Assembly: GCF_014698335.1 (NCBI RefSeq)
Contig: NZ_JACJSV010000042.1
Location: 1-43,937 of the forward strand
Direction of reading: 5' to 3'
Length of the DNA: 43,937 nucleotides
Origin: Microcystis viridis FACHB-1342
Lineage (GTDB): Bacteria > Cyanobacteriota > Cyanobacteriia > Cyanobacteriales > Microcystaceae
Made by a program: the position numbers and the translations under genes
Part shown: piece by piece, positions 4,733-15,414 of the stretch
Position numbering within the stretch: the stretch's first letter is position 1
Layout: every line of letters starts with the position of its first letter
Notes under the pieces: generated by a model
Seen by the model: only the letters and a program-made list of their open reading frames with translations
Databases searched by the model: none
What the model was told of the DNA's origin: nothing

Positions 4733-5146
4733 ATGCAAGCCACGGACAGTAAAAATAAGGTAGTTTATTGGGGAACGGGACGACGCAAATCGGCGGTCGC
4801 TTCCGTGCGTCTCGTGCCGGGGACGGGGGCAATTACCGTTAACGGTCGCGATGGGGAAACCCACTTTAACCGCATTCCCACCTATATCCAGACGATCAAG
4901 GCTCCTCTGGAGACTTTGGGACTGGAAAACGAGTATGATATCATCGTTAAGGCCGAGGGCGGTGGTTTGACTGGCCAAGCGGACGCAGTGAAATTGGGTG
5001 TCGCTAGAGCTTTATGTCAATTAACCCCGGAAAATCGTCCTCCCCTCAAGAGTGAAGGTTATCTGACTCGGGATCCCCGGGCGAAGGAACGGAAAAAATA
5101 CGGTCTTCACAAAGCGCGTAAAGCGCCTCAATACTCGAAACGTTAG
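4733..5146 (+). CDS. rpsI: 30S ribosomal protein S9
   Basis: S9 is a head protein whose C-terminal tail touches the anticodon loop of P-site tRNA. The 137-residue product has [19 protein letters not shown] near the start, [19 protein letters not shown] in the middle, and ends in the diagnostic [14 protein letters not shown] tail. It starts 4 bases after rplM and ends 19 bases before rpmE, so the three are probably co-transcribed. Confidence 0.96.
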
Positions 5147-5165
5147 GTTAATAGAGAGGTTTATT

Positions 5166-5399
5166 ATGCCGAAAAAAATTCATCCTACTTGGTATCCGGA
5201 AGCTAAGGTGATCTGTAATGGTGAAGTGGTGATGACGGTGGGTTCGACCAAACCAGAAATTCATGTGGAGGTTTGGTCGGGTAATCATCCTTTTTATACG
5301 GGAACCCAGAAGATGATCGATACGGAAGGCCGGGTCGATCGCTTCTTGCGTAAGTACAAAATGGGTGATAAGTCAAGCAAAAAGGCTGATCAGAAATAA
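5166..5399 (+). CDS. rpmE: 50S ribosomal protein L31
   Basis: L31 bridges the two subunits near the central protuberance. The 77-residue product starts MPKKIHPTWYPEAKVICNGE, followed by EVWSGNHPFYTGTQKM and a lysine-rich tail. It lacks the CxxC pair of zinc-binding L31, having a single cysteine at residue 17, so it is a zinc-independent form. AGAGG lies just upstream of the ATG. It ends the operon before a terminator; prfA, the usual next gene in cyanobacteria, is not here. Confidence 0.95.
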   Translation: MPKKIHPTWYPEAKVICNGEVVMTVGSTKPEIHVEVWSGNHPFYTGTQKMIDTEGRVDRFLRKYKMGDKSSKKADQK

Positions 5400-5420
5400 T
5401 TCTTTACTTTTGCCTTTTTG

Positions 5421-5453
5421 ACCCGGTGGGGAGATTTTCCCGCCGGGTTTTTT
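5421..5453 (+). terminator. Rho-independent terminator after rpmE
   Basis: ACCCGGTGGGGA pairs with TCCCGCCGGGT around a short loop, followed by TTTTTT. It starts 22 bases after the rpmE stop and closes the ribosomal operon. Confidence 0.88.
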
Positions 5454-5508
5454 GCTATCTTGAGGCTAGTAGAGTCATTATAGAATCCATTTGGTATCTT
5501 AGGATACA

Positions 5509-5653
5509 GGCTCTCTTAGGTTTGGTGGGTAAAATGTATTTTAAGATACAGTATTGCTGGCGAGGGAGTGGAGGGAACCACAGAGACACAGAGGACACAA
5601 AGATCGATCGATCCTATGTAAGTTAAACTTATCACACAGAACCTAGAAGAGCC
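5509..5653. mobile_element. MITE copy 2, inserted in the IS5 element
   Basis: This is the same family as 346-494 but in inverted orientation. Its ends are GGCTCTCTTAGGTTTGG on the left and the complement of GGCTCTTCTAGGTTCTGTG on the right. It is flanked by a perfect 7-bp duplication GGATACA at 5502-5508 and 5654-5660. Removing it with one duplication joins the transposase frame directly to a TAA stop at 5499-5501, showing that the insertion came after the IS. Confidence 0.9.
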
Positions 5654-6208
5654 GGATACAGCTAATTGTCGTAGTAGAAGTCGAAGAAAACAGAGATGAA
5701 TTTTGGTAGTGGAGTGTTCTAAAGTGCGCTCAAAATTTTTGACTAAAGATTTGCAGCGTTCCATCCAAGAATTACTTCTTTCAATCACCCATCGAGTTTT
5801 TACAGGTACGAATCCTGATAAACCCTTCTCCGCTTTTTCGGTTTTTGACGGTTTTGGAGACAGTTCAAACTGAATTTTAGTCATTATCTCTGGATAGACC
5901 TTAACCAACTCTTTCTCTATTTTGTCAGGATGATAACCATTATCTAGAAGAATAGTCGTCTTAGACAGTTCCGACGGTTTTAACTTGAAATAGTCAATAC
6001 CTCGAGTTAACAACTCAATCAATCCCTGGTCATCAGATAGGTTGGCGGGAGTACAATGAGCGAAAAAGGGAAAACCAAGACTATCCGTCCCTAGATGACG
6101 TTTAATTCCATTGGTGCACTTGTAGAAACAAAATCCTTTCGTCTCAACACTCGCATTACAGGTATTTTTGACGGCTTGAGAATCAATCATAATTAGATTC
6201 GTCCACAA
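5516..6208 (-). CDS. IS5-family transposase, catalytic frame (orfB), tail altered by MITE
   Basis: This frame holds the DDE catalytic core: IDSQAVKN (first Asp), LLDNGYHPD (second Asp) and RWVIERSNSWMERCK (Glu). The frame is 230 residues, but the native protein should end LLLRQLAVS at a TAA within the IS inverted end. The MITE at 5509-5653 removed that stop from the frame and added 45 foreign residues. There is no good independent start; the product is expected as an orfA-orfB fusion made by frameshifting at an A8 run (complement of 6210-6217). Whether the extended enzyme is active is unknown. Confidence 0.85.
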   Translation of the reverse strand: MWTNLIMIDSQAVKNTCNASVETKGFCFYKCTNGIKRHLGTDSLGFPFFAHCTPANLSDDQGLIELLTRGIDYFKLKPSELSKTTILLDNGYHPDKIEKELVKVYPEIMTKIQFELSPKPSKTEKAEKGLSGFVPVKTRWVIERSNSWMERCKSLVKNFERTLEHSTTKIHLCFLRLLLRQLAVSGSSRFCVISLTYIGSIDLCVLCVSVVPSTPSPAILYLKIHFTHQT

Positions 6209-6482
6209 GTTTTTTTTCTTGTTGTCGTAATCTGCGATGTAATTCTTCCATTATTTTTTGGATGATTCCCTGACTTCTCCACTGTTTATAATGCCAGAAC
6301 ACGGTGGAGTAGGGAGGGAAATCTTTCGTGAGGTCCCGCCAATTACCGCCATTTTTGAGTTGATAGAAAATCCCATCTAAAATCTGTCGTTTTGTCCATT
6401 TCGGGGGGCCAGTCAATTTCTTCTTTGGCAATAGCGGTTCTACGATAGACCACTCTTCATTCGTCATACTACTTGAGTACAT
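6183..6482 (-). CDS. IS5-family transposase, N-terminal frame (orfA, DUF4096-like)
   Basis: A 99-residue frame starting MYSSSMTNEEWSIVEPLLP, followed by the helix-turn-helix region KRQILDGIFYQLKNGGNWRD and FPPYSTVFWHYKQW. This is the usual N-terminal domain of IS5-type transposases. It overlaps orfB by 26 bases. The overlap contains eight consecutive A on the coding strand (6210-6217), a typical slippery site, so orfA-orfB is probably expressed as one transposase by programmed frameshifting. The gene looks intact. Confidence 0.87.
   Translation of the reverse strand: MYSSSMTNEEWSIVEPLLPKKKLTGPPKWTKRQILDGIFYQLKNGGNWRDLTKDFPPYSTVFWHYKQWRSQGIIQKIMEELHRRLRQQEKKLVDESNYD
6210..6217 (-). promoter_or_regulatory. 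A8 slippery frameshift site
   Basis: Eight A residues on the transposase strand lie in the orfA/orfB overlap, just before the orfA stop. Slippage there would connect the two frames. Confidence 0.65.
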
Positions 6483-6654
6483 TTTGGCTTACTCCAAAGT
6501 ATCGATTTTCGGGGACGACTAGACGGTGGCGCATTCACTGACGGGGTTCAGACCAAAGTATTGCCGTTAAACAGGCTACAGACTCTCTTCCCTGAAACCT
6601 ATAGTGGACAAGGTTTTCGCTTCACCTTTTCAGCCTAGCATCTACATTATAAAA
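6483..6654. other. Unassigned segment inside the IS5 element
   Basis: About 170 bases lie between the transposase start and the right inverted end. No gene is seen. The segment is more GC-rich and structured than an ordinary IS leader and could be an earlier small insertion or a fragment of another element. Confidence 0.4.
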
Positions 6655-6706
6655 GATACCAAATGGGTTCTATAAAACCGTTGTTCCCGCTAATCCTCTC
6701 GTACAG

Positions 6707-6766
6707 ATGAAGATTACTGTTAAAACCATCGGTTCTCTCCTGCGCGGTAACGCTTTAGCTCCTTAA
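6707..6766 (+). CDS. Very short ORF between IS and terminator
   Basis: An ATG-to-TAA frame of 19 residues starting MKITVKTIGSLLRGN, placed 17 bases before a hairpin terminator and just after the IS5 right end. It may be the tail of a gene cut by the IS, a small peptide, or chance. No family is recognised and no clear ribosome binding site is seen. Confidence 0.2.
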   Translation: MKITVKTIGSLLRGNALAP

Positions 6767-6783
6767 AATCAATTGATAACCAG

Positions 6784-6821
6784 AAAACCCAATCTCCCCA
6801 TGGCGGTGGTTGGGTTTTCTT
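6784..6821 (+). terminator. Hairpin terminator downstream of the IS
   Basis: AAAACCCAA at 6784-6792 pairs with TTGGGTTTT at 6810-6818, with T-rich sequence following. It is nearly symmetric and may work in both directions. It may be the original terminator of a gene now displaced by the IS. Confidence 0.65.
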
Positions 6822-6877
6822 TTGGGTTGTTTCATCTCCTATCTTCTCTAATTTAAAAAAAAATAAGGTATGTTATA

Positions 6878-6911
6878 CTAAATCCGTTGATTATAGGCTA
6901 CATATTAGGAT
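6878..6911. mobile_element. Half copy of a TA-targeting MITE or IS end
   Basis: CTAAATCCGTTGA plus the following TATAGGCTAC repeats the left end of the element at 15313-15414 with about 30 of 36 positions matching, again preceded by TA. No matching right end is seen before tcmP starts at 6912, so this is a remnant forming the immediate leader of that gene. Confidence 0.55.
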
Positions 6912-8042
6912 ATGACTAAAAATTCCTTCTTCAATGAGCAAAAAGAACAGTCCTTGATCAAAGCTAGGATTGTTGAGAAATATTTCTGGGCTTGGGCAAA
7001 AGTTATAATTTCAAAAGTTAAGGGATCGTCTTCAGTCCAGAAAATCGCTTATGTTGACCTTTTTGCTGGTGCAGGACGATATAAAGATGGCTCAAAATCA
7101 ACCCCAGTAAAAGTTCTAGAAACTGCCATCGCAGATCCAGATATGCGAAATATGCTGGTGTCGATCTTTAACGATGCCGATGTCGAAAAAGTTAATTCTC
7201 TTCAACAAGCTATAGATTCAATTCCGGGCATAGAAAATTTAAAATACCGCCCTCAAATATCAAAATATGAGGTTGGAGAGGACATAGTTAAAACCTTCCA
7301 AAGCATGAAATTAGTTCCCACTTTATTTTTTGTTGATCCTTGGGGTTACAAGGGACTATCTCTTCAACTTGTTAATTCGGTCGTCAAAGATTGGGGTTGT
7401 GATTGCATCTTCTTCTTCAATTACAATCGCATCAACATGGGTTTAAATAATGATGCAGTCAAAGAACACATAAATGCGCTATTCGGACAAGTAGGAGCAG
7501 ATCAACTCCGCAAACGATTGAAAACATTTACACTTACTCCACAAGAGCGTGAGTTAACCGTTGTAGAATATATCTGTGAAGCCTTGAAAGAAATGGGGGG
7601 TAAATATGTTCTTCCATTTCGTTTCAGACATGAAATGGGAAATCGTACTAGCCATCACCTAATTTTTGTAAGCAAGCATCCTAAAGGCTATGAAATTATG
7701 AAAGAGATAATGGCTAAAGAGAGTTCTGAACAGACGCAGGGCGTACCATCTTTTGAGTATAATCCTGCAACTCTTCAACAACCATTACTCTTTGAGCTAA
7801 CCAGTCCTCTTGATCAACTGGAATCTATGTTGTTGGACAATTTTTCAGGTAAAACTATGACGATGGCAGAGATTTACGACCAGCATCATGTGGGAAAACC
7901 GTACATTAAAAAGAATTACAAAACTGCCCTTAGCAATCTTGAATCTCAAGGAAAAGTCACAGTACATTCACCCGAGGACAAAAAACGGCGAAAAGGAACG
8001 TTTGCGGATGATTTAAAGGTTACATTTCCAGTTAAGCAATAA
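6912..8042 (+). CDS. tcmP: Three-Cys-motif partner protein TcmP
   Basis: The 376-residue product matches the TcmP family, named for occurring next to a three-cysteine protein of the Gp37/Gp68 (DUF5131) type. Visible motifs are VDLFAGAGRY (48-57), like SAM-binding motif I of methyltransferases, and FVDPWGYKG (140-148), in the position of a catalytic DPxY motif. A basic C-terminal region (about 310-376) resembles a winged helix. The reaction is not known; a nucleic-acid methyltransferase is inference. The partner gene lies directly downstream on the opposite strand, with stop codons overlapping by 11 bases. The leader contains a mobile-element remnant, fitting an acquired module. Confidence 0.85.
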   Translation: MTKNSFFNEQKEQSLIKARIVEKYFWAWAKVIISKVKGSSSVQKIAYVDLFAGAGRYKDGSKSTPVKVLETAIADPDMRNMLVSIFNDADVEKVNSLQQAIDSIPGIENLKYRPQISKYEVGEDIVKTFQSMKLVPTLFFVDPWGYKGLSLQLVNSVVKDWGCDCIFFFNYNRINMGLNNDAVKEHINALFGQVGADQLRKRLKTFTLTPQERELTVVEYICEALKEMGGKYVLPFRFRHEMGNRTSHHLIFVSKHPKGYEIMKEIMAKESSEQTQGVPSFEYNPATLQQPLLFELTSPLDQLESMLLDNFSGKTMTMAEIYDQHHVGKPYIKKNYKTALSNLESQGKVTVHSPEDKKRRKGTFADDLKVTFPVKQ

Positions 8043-8808
8043 GCTCTAATTTTTCTGAACGCCTCGCTGATTTAAGTGGGACACTTCCCCATGTTTGGAT
8101 ATGCTGATTCCAGGCATTAGGCATCTCGTCCCAGATTTTATCATCAAGTAATCTACCCCCTGCTTTCGGTGTCCTTCCCCCAACTTGTTTGAAAAAAAAT
8201 GCTACCCCTGAATTTTGACATTGATTGCGGATATCCCTTGCCCAGTCAAGTTTCATCTGGCGATGTTTTTGCCCGGATTCTCCGCCGACAATAACCCAAT
8301 CAATGCCAGTTAAATTAAGTTCTAGGGGTCCTAAAAGTGGCTCACATGAAATGAAACGCACTGAAACAGGAACTGTCCGAAGATATTCAATCCGATCTAT
8401 GTGGTTTTGGTTCTCGACAGATACACCTAGCCAAATGTTTTCTGGAAAATCTAATTTAGACGCTAAATCACCTAAACGGCTTTGTCGCTTTGTTAAAATC
8501 TGATATATATGCCAAGGTGTTAAATGAATAACTGAGAAAACTTGTCTGATAAAGTCGAGAGGCACATCATCATGAAAAAGGTCACTCATTGAGTTGACAA
8601 AAACTCGACTGGGAGTGCGCCAACGTAAGGGTTCTTCCAATCTTTCTGGATGCAAAGTTAAGCTGAATCCATTGGGAAAGTTTTTGGGAAAACGCTGTGT
8701 AATAGCTTCGGCATAACAATGCAGACAGCCGGTGCTAATTTTATCGCACCCGGTTGTTGGATTCCACGTTTTATCAGTCCACTCAATACCAGTGTTTATA
8801 CTAGACAT
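8032..8808 (-). CDS. DUF5131 (phage Gp37/Gp68) three-cysteine protein
   Basis: The 258-residue product begins MSSINTGIEWTDKTWNPTTG, followed by Cys21, Cys28 and Cys31 (C-x6-C-x2-C, then YAE). This is the hallmark of the Gp37/Gp68 family and resembles a radical-SAM cluster site. Later landmarks are RVFVNSMSDLFHDDVP, LTKRQSRL, WLGVSVENQ, RFISCEPLLGPL and WVIVGGESG, all typical of the family. The biochemical function is not established. It is convergent with tcmP and overlaps it by 11 bases, so transcripts of the two would be antisense at their 3' ends. Confidence 0.87.
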   Translation of the reverse strand: MSSINTGIEWTDKTWNPTTGCDKISTGCLHCYAEAITQRFPKNFPNGFSLTLHPERLEEPLRWRTPSRVFVNSMSDLFHDDVPLDFIRQVFSVIHLTPWHIYQILTKRQSRLGDLASKLDFPENIWLGVSVENQNHIDRIEYLRTVPVSVRFISCEPLLGPLELNLTGIDWVIVGGESGQKHRQMKLDWARDIRNQCQNSGVAFFFKQVGGRTPKAGGRLLDDKIWDEMPNAWNQHIQTWGSVPLKSARRSEKLELIA

Positions 8809-8865: not shown

Positions 8866-8895
8866 TACTTGTACTATATCATTGTTTGACAAGTA
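8866..8895. promoter_or_regulatory. Candidate operator upstream of the DUF5131 gene
   Basis: A perfect inverted repeat TACTTGT / ACAAGTA with a 16-base spacer lies 58 bases upstream of the DUF5131 start. The symmetry suits a dimeric repressor, but no regulator is identified. Confidence 0.35.
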
Positions 8896-9056: not shown

Positions 9057-9941
9057 TTAGTACCATAATTCGGGGATCAGGTCATAATAACCAGCTTGGG
9101 GCGGTGGGTAAACACCCGCTTCGATTTTTTCGATAATAGTCGGCCAAGCTTGCCTAAAAGCGGCAGAGCGCTCGTTGGGGTGCAGAGTCCAACCCTTGGC
9201 ATTGGTGAGAGTGGCGCGATAATAGTTGCTTTGTTCTAGGGAGCGAGAAACCATAATTTCCCAAGAGTCGAGTTTTCCTTTGCCGGTCAAAATATTGCCC
9301 CAAGCTTTTAAACCATCGGGTAAGTGATCGAGAAAGGTATTTTTATAAGAGCGCCAGAGGGGGGTCATCGGTAAAAGGCGATCGTAGCGACGACAATTAA
9401 GTAGATAGGCACGGCTGCCAAAAAATTTAAATTGATAGAATCCATCGGGATTTTTTGTGTAAGGATGCTGAGAATAAATCGTACCATCAGGCCGCGGTGG
9501 ACCGGACAAAGGACGCACAAACATCATTTCTGGATGGGTTTCCATTAACTCGATCCCTTCGCGGATCCAACTGTAATCTGGTTCTTGGTAGAGCATCATG
9601 TCACTGTCATAATGAACCATATAGTCGCTGCGACATGACTCGATTTTGAAGATCGAGCCAAAAATCGGATAACCTTTGTAGTTATGGGTGGAACGGAGGG
9701 GACTGCCGAAATGCTTTTGATAGATACGCTGACGATAGCTGGGACCGTAGTTAAAATCCACTAGGCGATCAATTATGCCATGTTCAACTAATTTTTCACC
9801 ACAGGCTCTTAATTCCTCCATTGTACCCAGTCCGGGGCGATTAACCTTTTCCCCGCTTAAAGGGGCCGTGTCAATAGCGAGTACCTTTTCCTCGAAGGGA
9901 AACTGACTCATTTTGACTAAATGGGGAATAGTGTTCATCAT
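9057..9941 (-). CDS. Glycosyltransferase (GT-A like), probably with a nonsense codon at its 5' end
   Basis: The readable frame gives 294 residues starting MMNTIPHLVKM. It has a DSD metal/nucleotide-sugar motif at 112-114 (within VHYDSDMMLYQ) and aromatic-rich acceptor regions, so it probably transfers a sugar to a cell-surface glycan. The frame continues upstream of this ATG as LWFFTARTDVWF, protein-like sequence, to an in-frame TAG (9978-9980) and then an ATG at 9998. That earlier ATG has a GTGAGG ribosome binding site, so the native start is probably 9998 and codon 7 is now TAG, plausibly from CAG. The shorter start has no clear binding site. The sulfotransferase gene is divergent. Confidence 0.72.
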   Translation of the reverse strand: MMNTIPHLVKMSQFPFEEKVLAIDTAPLSGEKVNRPGLGTMEELRACGEKLVEHGIIDRLVDFNYGPSYRQRIYQKHFGSPLRSTHNYKGYPIFGSIFKIESCRSDYMVHYDSDMMLYQEPDYSWIREGIELMETHPEMMFVRPLSGPPRPDGTIYSQHPYTKNPDGFYQFKFFGSRAYLLNCRRYDRLLPMTPLWRSYKNTFLDHLPDGLKAWGNILTGKGKLDSWEIMVSRSLEQSNYYRATLTNAKGWTLHPNERSAAFRQAWPTIIEKIEAGVYPPPQAGYYDLIPELWY

Positions 9942-15259: not shown

Positions 15260-15312
15260 ATTTGAGTTTTCAGTTCACTGATGACTGTTTAGCGATCAAG
15301 GAGTAATTTATA

Positions 15313-15414
15313 CTAAATCCGTTGAATATAGGCTACTTATCAGGACAGGCACTCATGCAATAGGCAAGAGGCAAAAGGGGGAATAAATAATCAGTCTTTA
15401 ATAACCAGATTTAG
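15313..15414. mobile_element. 102-bp MITE flanked by TA
   Basis: Inverted ends CTAAATCCGTTGA and the complement of CTAAATCTGGTTA enclose about 100 non-coding bases, with TA on both outer sides (15311-15312 and 15415-15416). TA duplication and size fit a non-autonomous IS630/Tc1-mariner element. The left end is repeated at 6878-6911. Confidence 0.65.

Follow-up and report, generated by a model that had tools for sequence, protein, structure and literature searches.

A TcmP methyltransferase gene and its convergent DUF5131 partner in Microcystis viridis: a candidate mobile nucleic-acid modification cassette with an exchangeable radical-SAM component

The pair formed by tcmP and a DUF5131 gene is already known as PADLOC candidate PDC-M30/M41. 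A study of 100 P. aeruginosa strains reported PDC-M30 in 32 of them, and 68.8% of these 32 strains were phage resistant (PMC10855318). In S. meliloti, another study lists TcmP directly after the defence gene hna, under a neighbouring locus tag (PMC12445080). A described system that is close in position is that of phage CarolAnn, where two genes that share a transcript with the immunity repressor give defence, and the paper likens the arrangement to cI-rexA-rexB of lambda (PMC6426606). No functional study of the TcmP-DUF5131 pair was found in the literature searched, mostly without subscription papers and bioRxiv. The initial annotation of this DNA was thus right in saying that the pair has no established function; its proposal of an undescribed system had to be given up in view of the PADLOC matches.

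The window, i.e. the whole stretch of 43,937 nucleotides from M. viridis FACHB-1342 that was analysed and a complete contig of the assembly, carries intact, convergent tcmP and DUF5131 genes whose stop regions overlap exactly as initially annotated (Table 1). The host genome (4.70 Mb, 138 contigs) has one copy of each family. TcmP matched the PADLOC model M30A with an E-value of 4.8e-30 and M41A with 6e-6; DUF5131 matched M41B with 6.9e-104 and M30B with 1.4e-101. By HMM E-value the adjacent genes provide both the A and the B component of PDC-M30 and, as M41B slightly outscores M30B, it is TcmP that decides for PDC-M30 over PDC-M41 on these model scores.

Table 1. Coordinates of the features at and around the tcmP/DUF5131 locus in the window
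Feature	Position	Strand	Description and basis
IS4/5-type element	5478..6675	-	inverted repeats 5478-5500/6653-6675; transposase ORFs by Pfam
3' remnant of chlP-like gene	6669..6768	+	intact gene directly precedes the pair in G355, G310
Half MITE adjoining tcmP start	6875..6911	+	31-mer copy count, comparison with G355 and G310
tcmP	6912..8042	+	376 aa, predicted class I SAM methyltransferase with C-terminal wHTH; ORF list, profiles, AlphaFold2, Foldseek
TcmP motif I VDLFAGAGRY	7053..7082	+	family alignment
TcmP motif IV DPWG	7335..7346	+	family alignment
GMT-like wHTH domain of TcmP	7755..7973	+	aa 282-354; PF22560
Stop-region overlap of tcmP and DUF5131	8032..8042		11 bases; ORF coordinates
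DUF5131 gene	8032..8808	-	258 aa, predicted SPL-like radical-SAM fold; profiles, AlphaFold2, Foldseek
DUF5131 three-cysteine site C21-x6-C28-x2-C31	8716..8748	-	alignment, profile comparison

TcmP belongs to TIGR04474 (NCBIfam; 231.2 bits against a cut-off of 53, aa 12-270), and its tail matches the GMT-wHTH family of Pfam with 80.8 bits against a cut-off of 27. The methyltransferase-like character claimed for it earlier was borne out, as the Rossmann fold, motif I and acidic motif IV of class I SAM methyltransferases are all present. In an alignment of 57 sequences the motif IV residues D142 and G145 are found in 57 and 54, and D49, G53 and G55 of motif I in 54, 56 and 51, respectively. Since D142 never varies and D49, G53 and G145 hardly do among relatives that are mostly less than 40% identical to the window protein (43 of 56), conservation suggests that TcmP is a working methyltransferase. 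The AlphaFold2 model (pLDDT 94, pTM 0.92) is that of a class I methyltransferase with RNA-modifying enzymes as its nearest predicted relatives: TYW4, Trm1 and RlmJ account for the four best PDB folds in Foldseek (E 1e-5 to 4e-5) and are followed by CmoA, and beyond rank 5 come small-molecule methyltransferases (PsiM, for example) and others, with a TM by query of only 0.3-0.4 for these fold matches. The DPWG motif is similar to what we take to be the DPFG motif of Trm1. Searches of PDB sequences returned no convincing match. RlmJ may account for the weak TcmP-profile matches of about 290 aa that were met in the G391 genome set and the E. coli control. The dN/dS ratios point to purifying selection on both tcmP and DUF5131, being 0.07-0.12 for each in comparisons with G014, G282 and G027; against the near copy in G355 they are 0.50 for TcmP (26 changes) and 0.82 for DUF5131 (4 changes), values that are not informative. 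Over 112 pairs the TcmP distances are only weakly correlated with those of DUF5131 (Mantel r 0.20), and none of 2000 permutations gave as high a value.

Spore photoproduct lyase (SPL) is a direct-reversal repair enzyme. Direct reversal by SPL is also described in PMC3742179. The DUF5131 protein of the window is a member of PF07505 (Pfam; 320.3 bits against a gathering cut-off of 28.9), and the fold of its AlphaFold2 model (pLDDT 92, pTM 0.89) appears modestly closest to SPL. In Foldseek, SPL took ranks 1-6 (E 1.4e-3 to 7.6e-3, TM 0.46-0.54) followed by lipoyl synthase, none of the matches reaching E 0.001, and in NCBIfam the SPL model did not match DUF5131 up to E 1. The three-cysteine site, which had been noticed at the outset as radical-SAM-like, is kept in 71 of 75 aligned relatives and the remaining 4 are gapped there. 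This CX6CX2C site differs from the canonical radical-SAM motif CX3CX2C. In a profile comparison its cysteines and an S-x-EP motif align with the CX3CX3C family of alternative TcmP partners described below (probability 89.5, E 2e-6), as against a probability of only 28 for the CX3CX2C partners. DUF5131 thus has profile and fold similarity to radical-SAM enzymes, and its cysteines probably form a 4Fe-4S/SAM site. Upstream of DUF5131 the element TATAGTAC, probably a -10 box, is exact in 7 of 14 cyanobacterial upstream regions and has one mismatch in 2 more. An inverted repeat (8866-8895), proposed earlier as a candidate operator, was rejected, since it is present in only 2 of the 14 regions (the window and the near-identical G355 copy).

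In three phyla TcmP and DUF5131 are found in the same genomes far more often than chance would give, which confirms that the two families travel together. Among 386 genomes of the window's phylum, 48 have both families, 8 TcmP only, 24 DUF5131 only and 306 neither, with all rows at E 0.001 used. For the 299 genomes of the phylum that holds the Chromatiales locus (G391) the respective numbers are 19, 0, 14 and 266, and for the 296 genomes of the phylum that holds the Streptomyces locus (G392) they are 25, 10, 11 and 250; here TcmP rows over the cut-off were counted, which dropped 22 rows from the G391 set, and 6 rows and the second piece of G862 from the G392 set. Fisher p values are 1e-34, 2e-21 and 5e-20. 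At E 0.001 TcmP is found in 56/386, 40/299 and 37/296 genomes; the family cut-off is reached in 53, 19 and 35 of them.

It was further found that the partner of TcmP can be exchanged. Among 173 distinct TcmP ORFs with a length of 250 aa or more (duplicates removed), the partner within 3 kb is DUF5131 for 151, a figure that is biased because many loci were fetched through DUF5131, an SplB-like CX3CX2C protein for 11, a CX3CX3C protein for 7 and none of these for 4. Two of the last four lie near contig ends, one has a neighbour with the motif CKHDCKYC that weakly matches radical-SAM models, and one (L307), which covers profile positions 41-262 only, is without a partner. Thus, 19 of the 22 TcmP ORFs without DUF5131 adjoin another radical-SAM gene, two lie at the end of a contig and one is without such a neighbour. 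An SplB-like CX3CX2C gene adjoins each of the ten cyanobacterial TcmP matches that are over the cut-off, longer than 290 aa and have no DUF5131 nearby, and the G392 set contributes seven TcmP loci with a CX3CX3C radical-SAM gene and one with the CKHDCKYC gene. These alternative partners match the PA0069, Rv2578c and rSAM-mobile-pair models below the cut-offs of those models. In an archaeon, on a Halopiger plasmid (L233, 5320-9110), TcmP is adjoined by two diverging SplB-like genes annotated as radical SAM protein; a ThiF-family gene also lies near TcmP on this plasmid. DUF5131 as the sole partner of TcmP is ruled out by these other neighbours. As 19 of 22 TcmP ORFs that lack DUF5131 stand beside another radical-SAM gene, the conserved unit, judged from the gene neighbourhoods, is a methyltransferase with an SPL-like radical-SAM enzyme, and DUF5131 is its commonest version in these samples.

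The gene order is more variable than the arrangement in the window would suggest. In the best 80 DUF5131-fetched loci among the matches listed, eight of them cyanobacterial, TcmP lies within 3 kb of 70 of the 82 DUF5131 ORFs and the other 12 are without it; the 70 pairs are 34 TcmP-first, 21 convergent, 13 DUF5131-first and 2 divergent. Convergence is therefore not general. Within the cyanobacteria the arrangement follows TcmP length. Of 60 TcmP rows 16 are unpaired, and of those paired, TcmP ORFs of 340-405 aa are convergent in 18/18, short intact ones (n=9) are all DUF5131-first and long ones are convergent in 8 and TcmP-first in 7, two more short rows being pieces of the broken G310 gene. 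The overlap is exactly 11 bases in 11 of 14 distinct convergent cyanobacterial loci (window included), 20 bases in 2 and replaced by a gap in 1, so that locally the exact overlap is more than chance. It is a lineage trait, and since orientation is mixed across the family the overlap says nothing about defence, of which it had been taken as a sign.

The surroundings of the pair record a history of its own. The insertion sequence noticed beside it was verified as an IS4/5-family transposase between inverted repeats, split into two overlapping ORFs (6183-6482 and 5516-6208); a search for the IS in plasmids gave no match. The half MITE could also be verified: with up to 3 mismatches allowed, its 31-mer (6875-6905) occurs 50 times in the genome, this copy counted, and the reversed control gave 0 matches. 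A second MITE end lies within the window at 15310-15340. The half MITE abuts the start of tcmP in place of a longer leader that G355 and G310 have in common, and because of this the expression of the window copy is uncertain. The chlP-like remnant is followed by a hairpin (6782-6820) which is also found after the intact gene in G355. The IS4/5-type element ends at this remnant and the pair therefore now lies beside rpsI-rpmE; the names chlP-like, rpsI and rpmE are presumed from the protein sequences. The corresponding site in G095 lacks the pair, as only about 0.2 kb separates rpmE there from the counterpart of the window sequence beyond the pair (from 9026); G095 has a DUF5131-first pair at another place. 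The window gene that comes next (9057-9941) has no Pfam match. Neither family was found in the profile-searched genomes G235 and G251 of the same genus. The IS element and the half MITE are later local events and, like the overlap and the inverted repeat, do not support the reading as a defence module. What stands of that claim is that the pair was acquired, which is supported by its occurrence at other sites, by its being broken or absent in same-genus genomes and by its presence on plasmids and phages.

The phage and plasmid context favours defence, in our interpretation. Six Gordonia phages that carry an integrase and a repressor were taken from among the top matches, so that they do not form a random sample. 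TcmP immediately follows the immunity repressor in 5/6 and a convergent DUF5131 is present in 6/6. A tblastn search for TcmP in phages gave 7 records, all of them Gordonia. This search undercounts, because it missed Synechococcus phage Yong-M2-251 (L232), where a TcmP frame unnamed in the record is found by profile in the 10.7-kb region around DUF5131. In viral loci TcmP is within 3 kb of 55 of 90 DUF5131 ORFs, 12 of those loci having been fetched via TcmP, and the other 35 ORFs are without it. On a Rhodococcus plasmid the pair adjoins a zeta toxin and DUF3375, DUF4194 and ATP-binding genes, which we take to be JetABC/Wadjet. The neighbour scans were not decisive, and one of them is against defence. 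Around 20 cyanobacterial loci, 119 near genes matched 67 PADLOC families as compared to 47 for 120 genes of 20 control regions. Loci and controls have 19 genomes in common, G215 standing among the loci only and G105 among the controls only; this difference does not decide because families and not proteins were counted. In 25 non-cyanobacterial loci taken from L066-L137 (20 kb or longer and with enough genes to either side, ORFs above 1100 aa left out, near genes compared with far genes only), 100 far genes matched 115 PADLOC families and 100 near genes 74. Type III and IIG restriction, CBASS cyclase, capP and Cap15 are found among the near genes, and Cas1/Cas4 and HmaB among the far ones. In L277 (G018, 4853-7952) a lone DUF5131 shares 4 bases with an HsdS-like gene and is preceded by an AlbA_2-like gene, according to an ORF-start reading, and this could possibly be a type I restriction locus.

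The explanation to which we incline, by a little beyond an even chance, is that the pair is a mobile two-enzyme cassette for nucleic-acid modification, probably defensive. TcmP would modify a base as a class I SAM methyltransferase, and its wHTH tail may bind nucleic acid. DUF5131, as an SPL-like enzyme with a variant CX6CX2C site, would make a 5'-deoxyadenosyl radical and act on the same base, either before or after TcmP; RNA is a somewhat likelier target than DNA. TcmP would depend on its radical-SAM partner, being toxic or useless without one, and the cassette could be kept as an accessory function, most likely anti-phage, of chromosomes, plasmids and prophages. The manner in which the pair decays fits such a dependence, whether its cause is toxicity or the order of a pathway. 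Five cyanobacterial genomes have an intact DUF5131 next to a tcmP that is damaged or lost: in G097 the stretch corresponding to 5592-7828 of the window is deleted and with it most of tcmP, in G243 a 26-residue remnant is left, in G310 insertions split the gene, and G318 and G087 complete the set. The reverse case, a broken DUF5131 beside an intact TcmP, was not seen among cyanobacterial pairs; G155 was left out of the count because its DUF5131 reaches a contig end, and fragments of TcmP and of DUF5131 also occur alone elsewhere.

The same asymmetry speaks for an alternative to which we give a clearly smaller but still appreciable chance, namely that the pair works as a toxin-antitoxin or abortive-infection system in which TcmP writes a harmful base change and the SPL-like partner directly reverses it. 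Infection or plasmid loss would tip the balance, and a lone phage DUF5131 would be an eraser directed against host TcmP. The rarity of TcmP without a radical-SAM neighbour, the direct-reversal activity of SPL and the lone DUF5131 of viral loci (phage TChen has no TcmP in the 12.7 kb around it) agree with this. However, there are five events only, two of which are single in-frame stops that could be sequencing errors; decay was scored in cyanobacterial pairs only; tcmP is the longer gene, and length alone would give 5/5 with a chance of about 0.07; and the asymmetry would also be expected if TcmP merely needs the product of DUF5131. In its boldest form, an immune or addiction module with an obligate but interchangeable SPL-like eraser, against which phages carry a lone DUF5131 as counter-defence, the idea is slightly less probable still. 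To our knowledge no radical-SAM antitoxin or eraser of such a kind is known, and none was met in the literature searched. It is rather improbable that the pair hypermodifies the DNA of its own element so that host restriction spares it. Phage and plasmid carriage, the wHTH tail and the HsdS-like and AlbA_2-like genes on either side of the lone DUF5131 in L277 would suit such anti-restriction, but in the five Gordonia phages TcmP stands behind the repressor and not among lytic early genes, and chromosomal copies are common and under purifying selection. Accessory repair, in which the two enzymes mend a damaged or alkylated base, is harder again to credit: the SPL-like fold speaks for it, as does an annotated S24 peptidase feature that coincides with the DUF5131 match on one Comamonas plasmid, but further repair genes were not noticed in the neighbourhoods read, DUF5131 is paired with a methyltransferase and the distribution is patchy and mobile. 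That the pair is a housekeeping tRNA or rRNA modification system which happens to move is very improbable; the nearness of the TcmP fold to RNA-modifying methyltransferases is in its favour, but only a minority of genomes in each phylum have TcmP, and it is absent or broken in genomes of the same genus.

The partner exchange, the alignment of the DUF5131 cluster site and its SPL-like fold, the TcmP fold, the slot in Gordonia phages and the asymmetry of TcmP decay are new here. The tie to SPL-like radical-SAM enzymes, the exchangeable partner and a slot already shown to serve prophage defence make the pair directly testable. Should the partner prove to write or erase a base, bacterial immunity would be seen to have a new tool in radical chemistry on nucleic acids. 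PDC-M30 and PDC-M41 are the same adjacent gene pair, candidate defence systems with function unassigned; matches to their models come with no mechanism or activity attached and show no radical-SAM partner besides DUF5131. Trm1, RlmJ and TYW4 resemble TcmP in predicted fold but not in PDB sequence searches, and TcmP has in addition a wHTH and a radical-SAM partner. SPL and the PA0069-Rv2578c radical-SAM proteins are like DUF5131 in its best fold matches, and their models are matched below cut-off by the alternative partners of TcmP, but their cluster site is CX3CX2C and that of DUF5131 is CX6CX2C. rSAM mobile pair A (TIGR04471) is matched by aa 25-237 of DUF5131 with 75.6 bits, far from the cut-off of 355 bits, and DUF5131 is not a member of that family. 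The slot behind the repressor that gp43/gp44 occupy in CarolAnn is taken by TcmP in five Gordonia phages. The effector proposed for CarolAnn is an ion channel (PMC6426606), and DUF5131 is convergent and lies outside any such operon; the likeness of TcmP is one of position. As a gene pair, then, the locus is ordinary, being a known candidate, but it is not ordinary in its implications.
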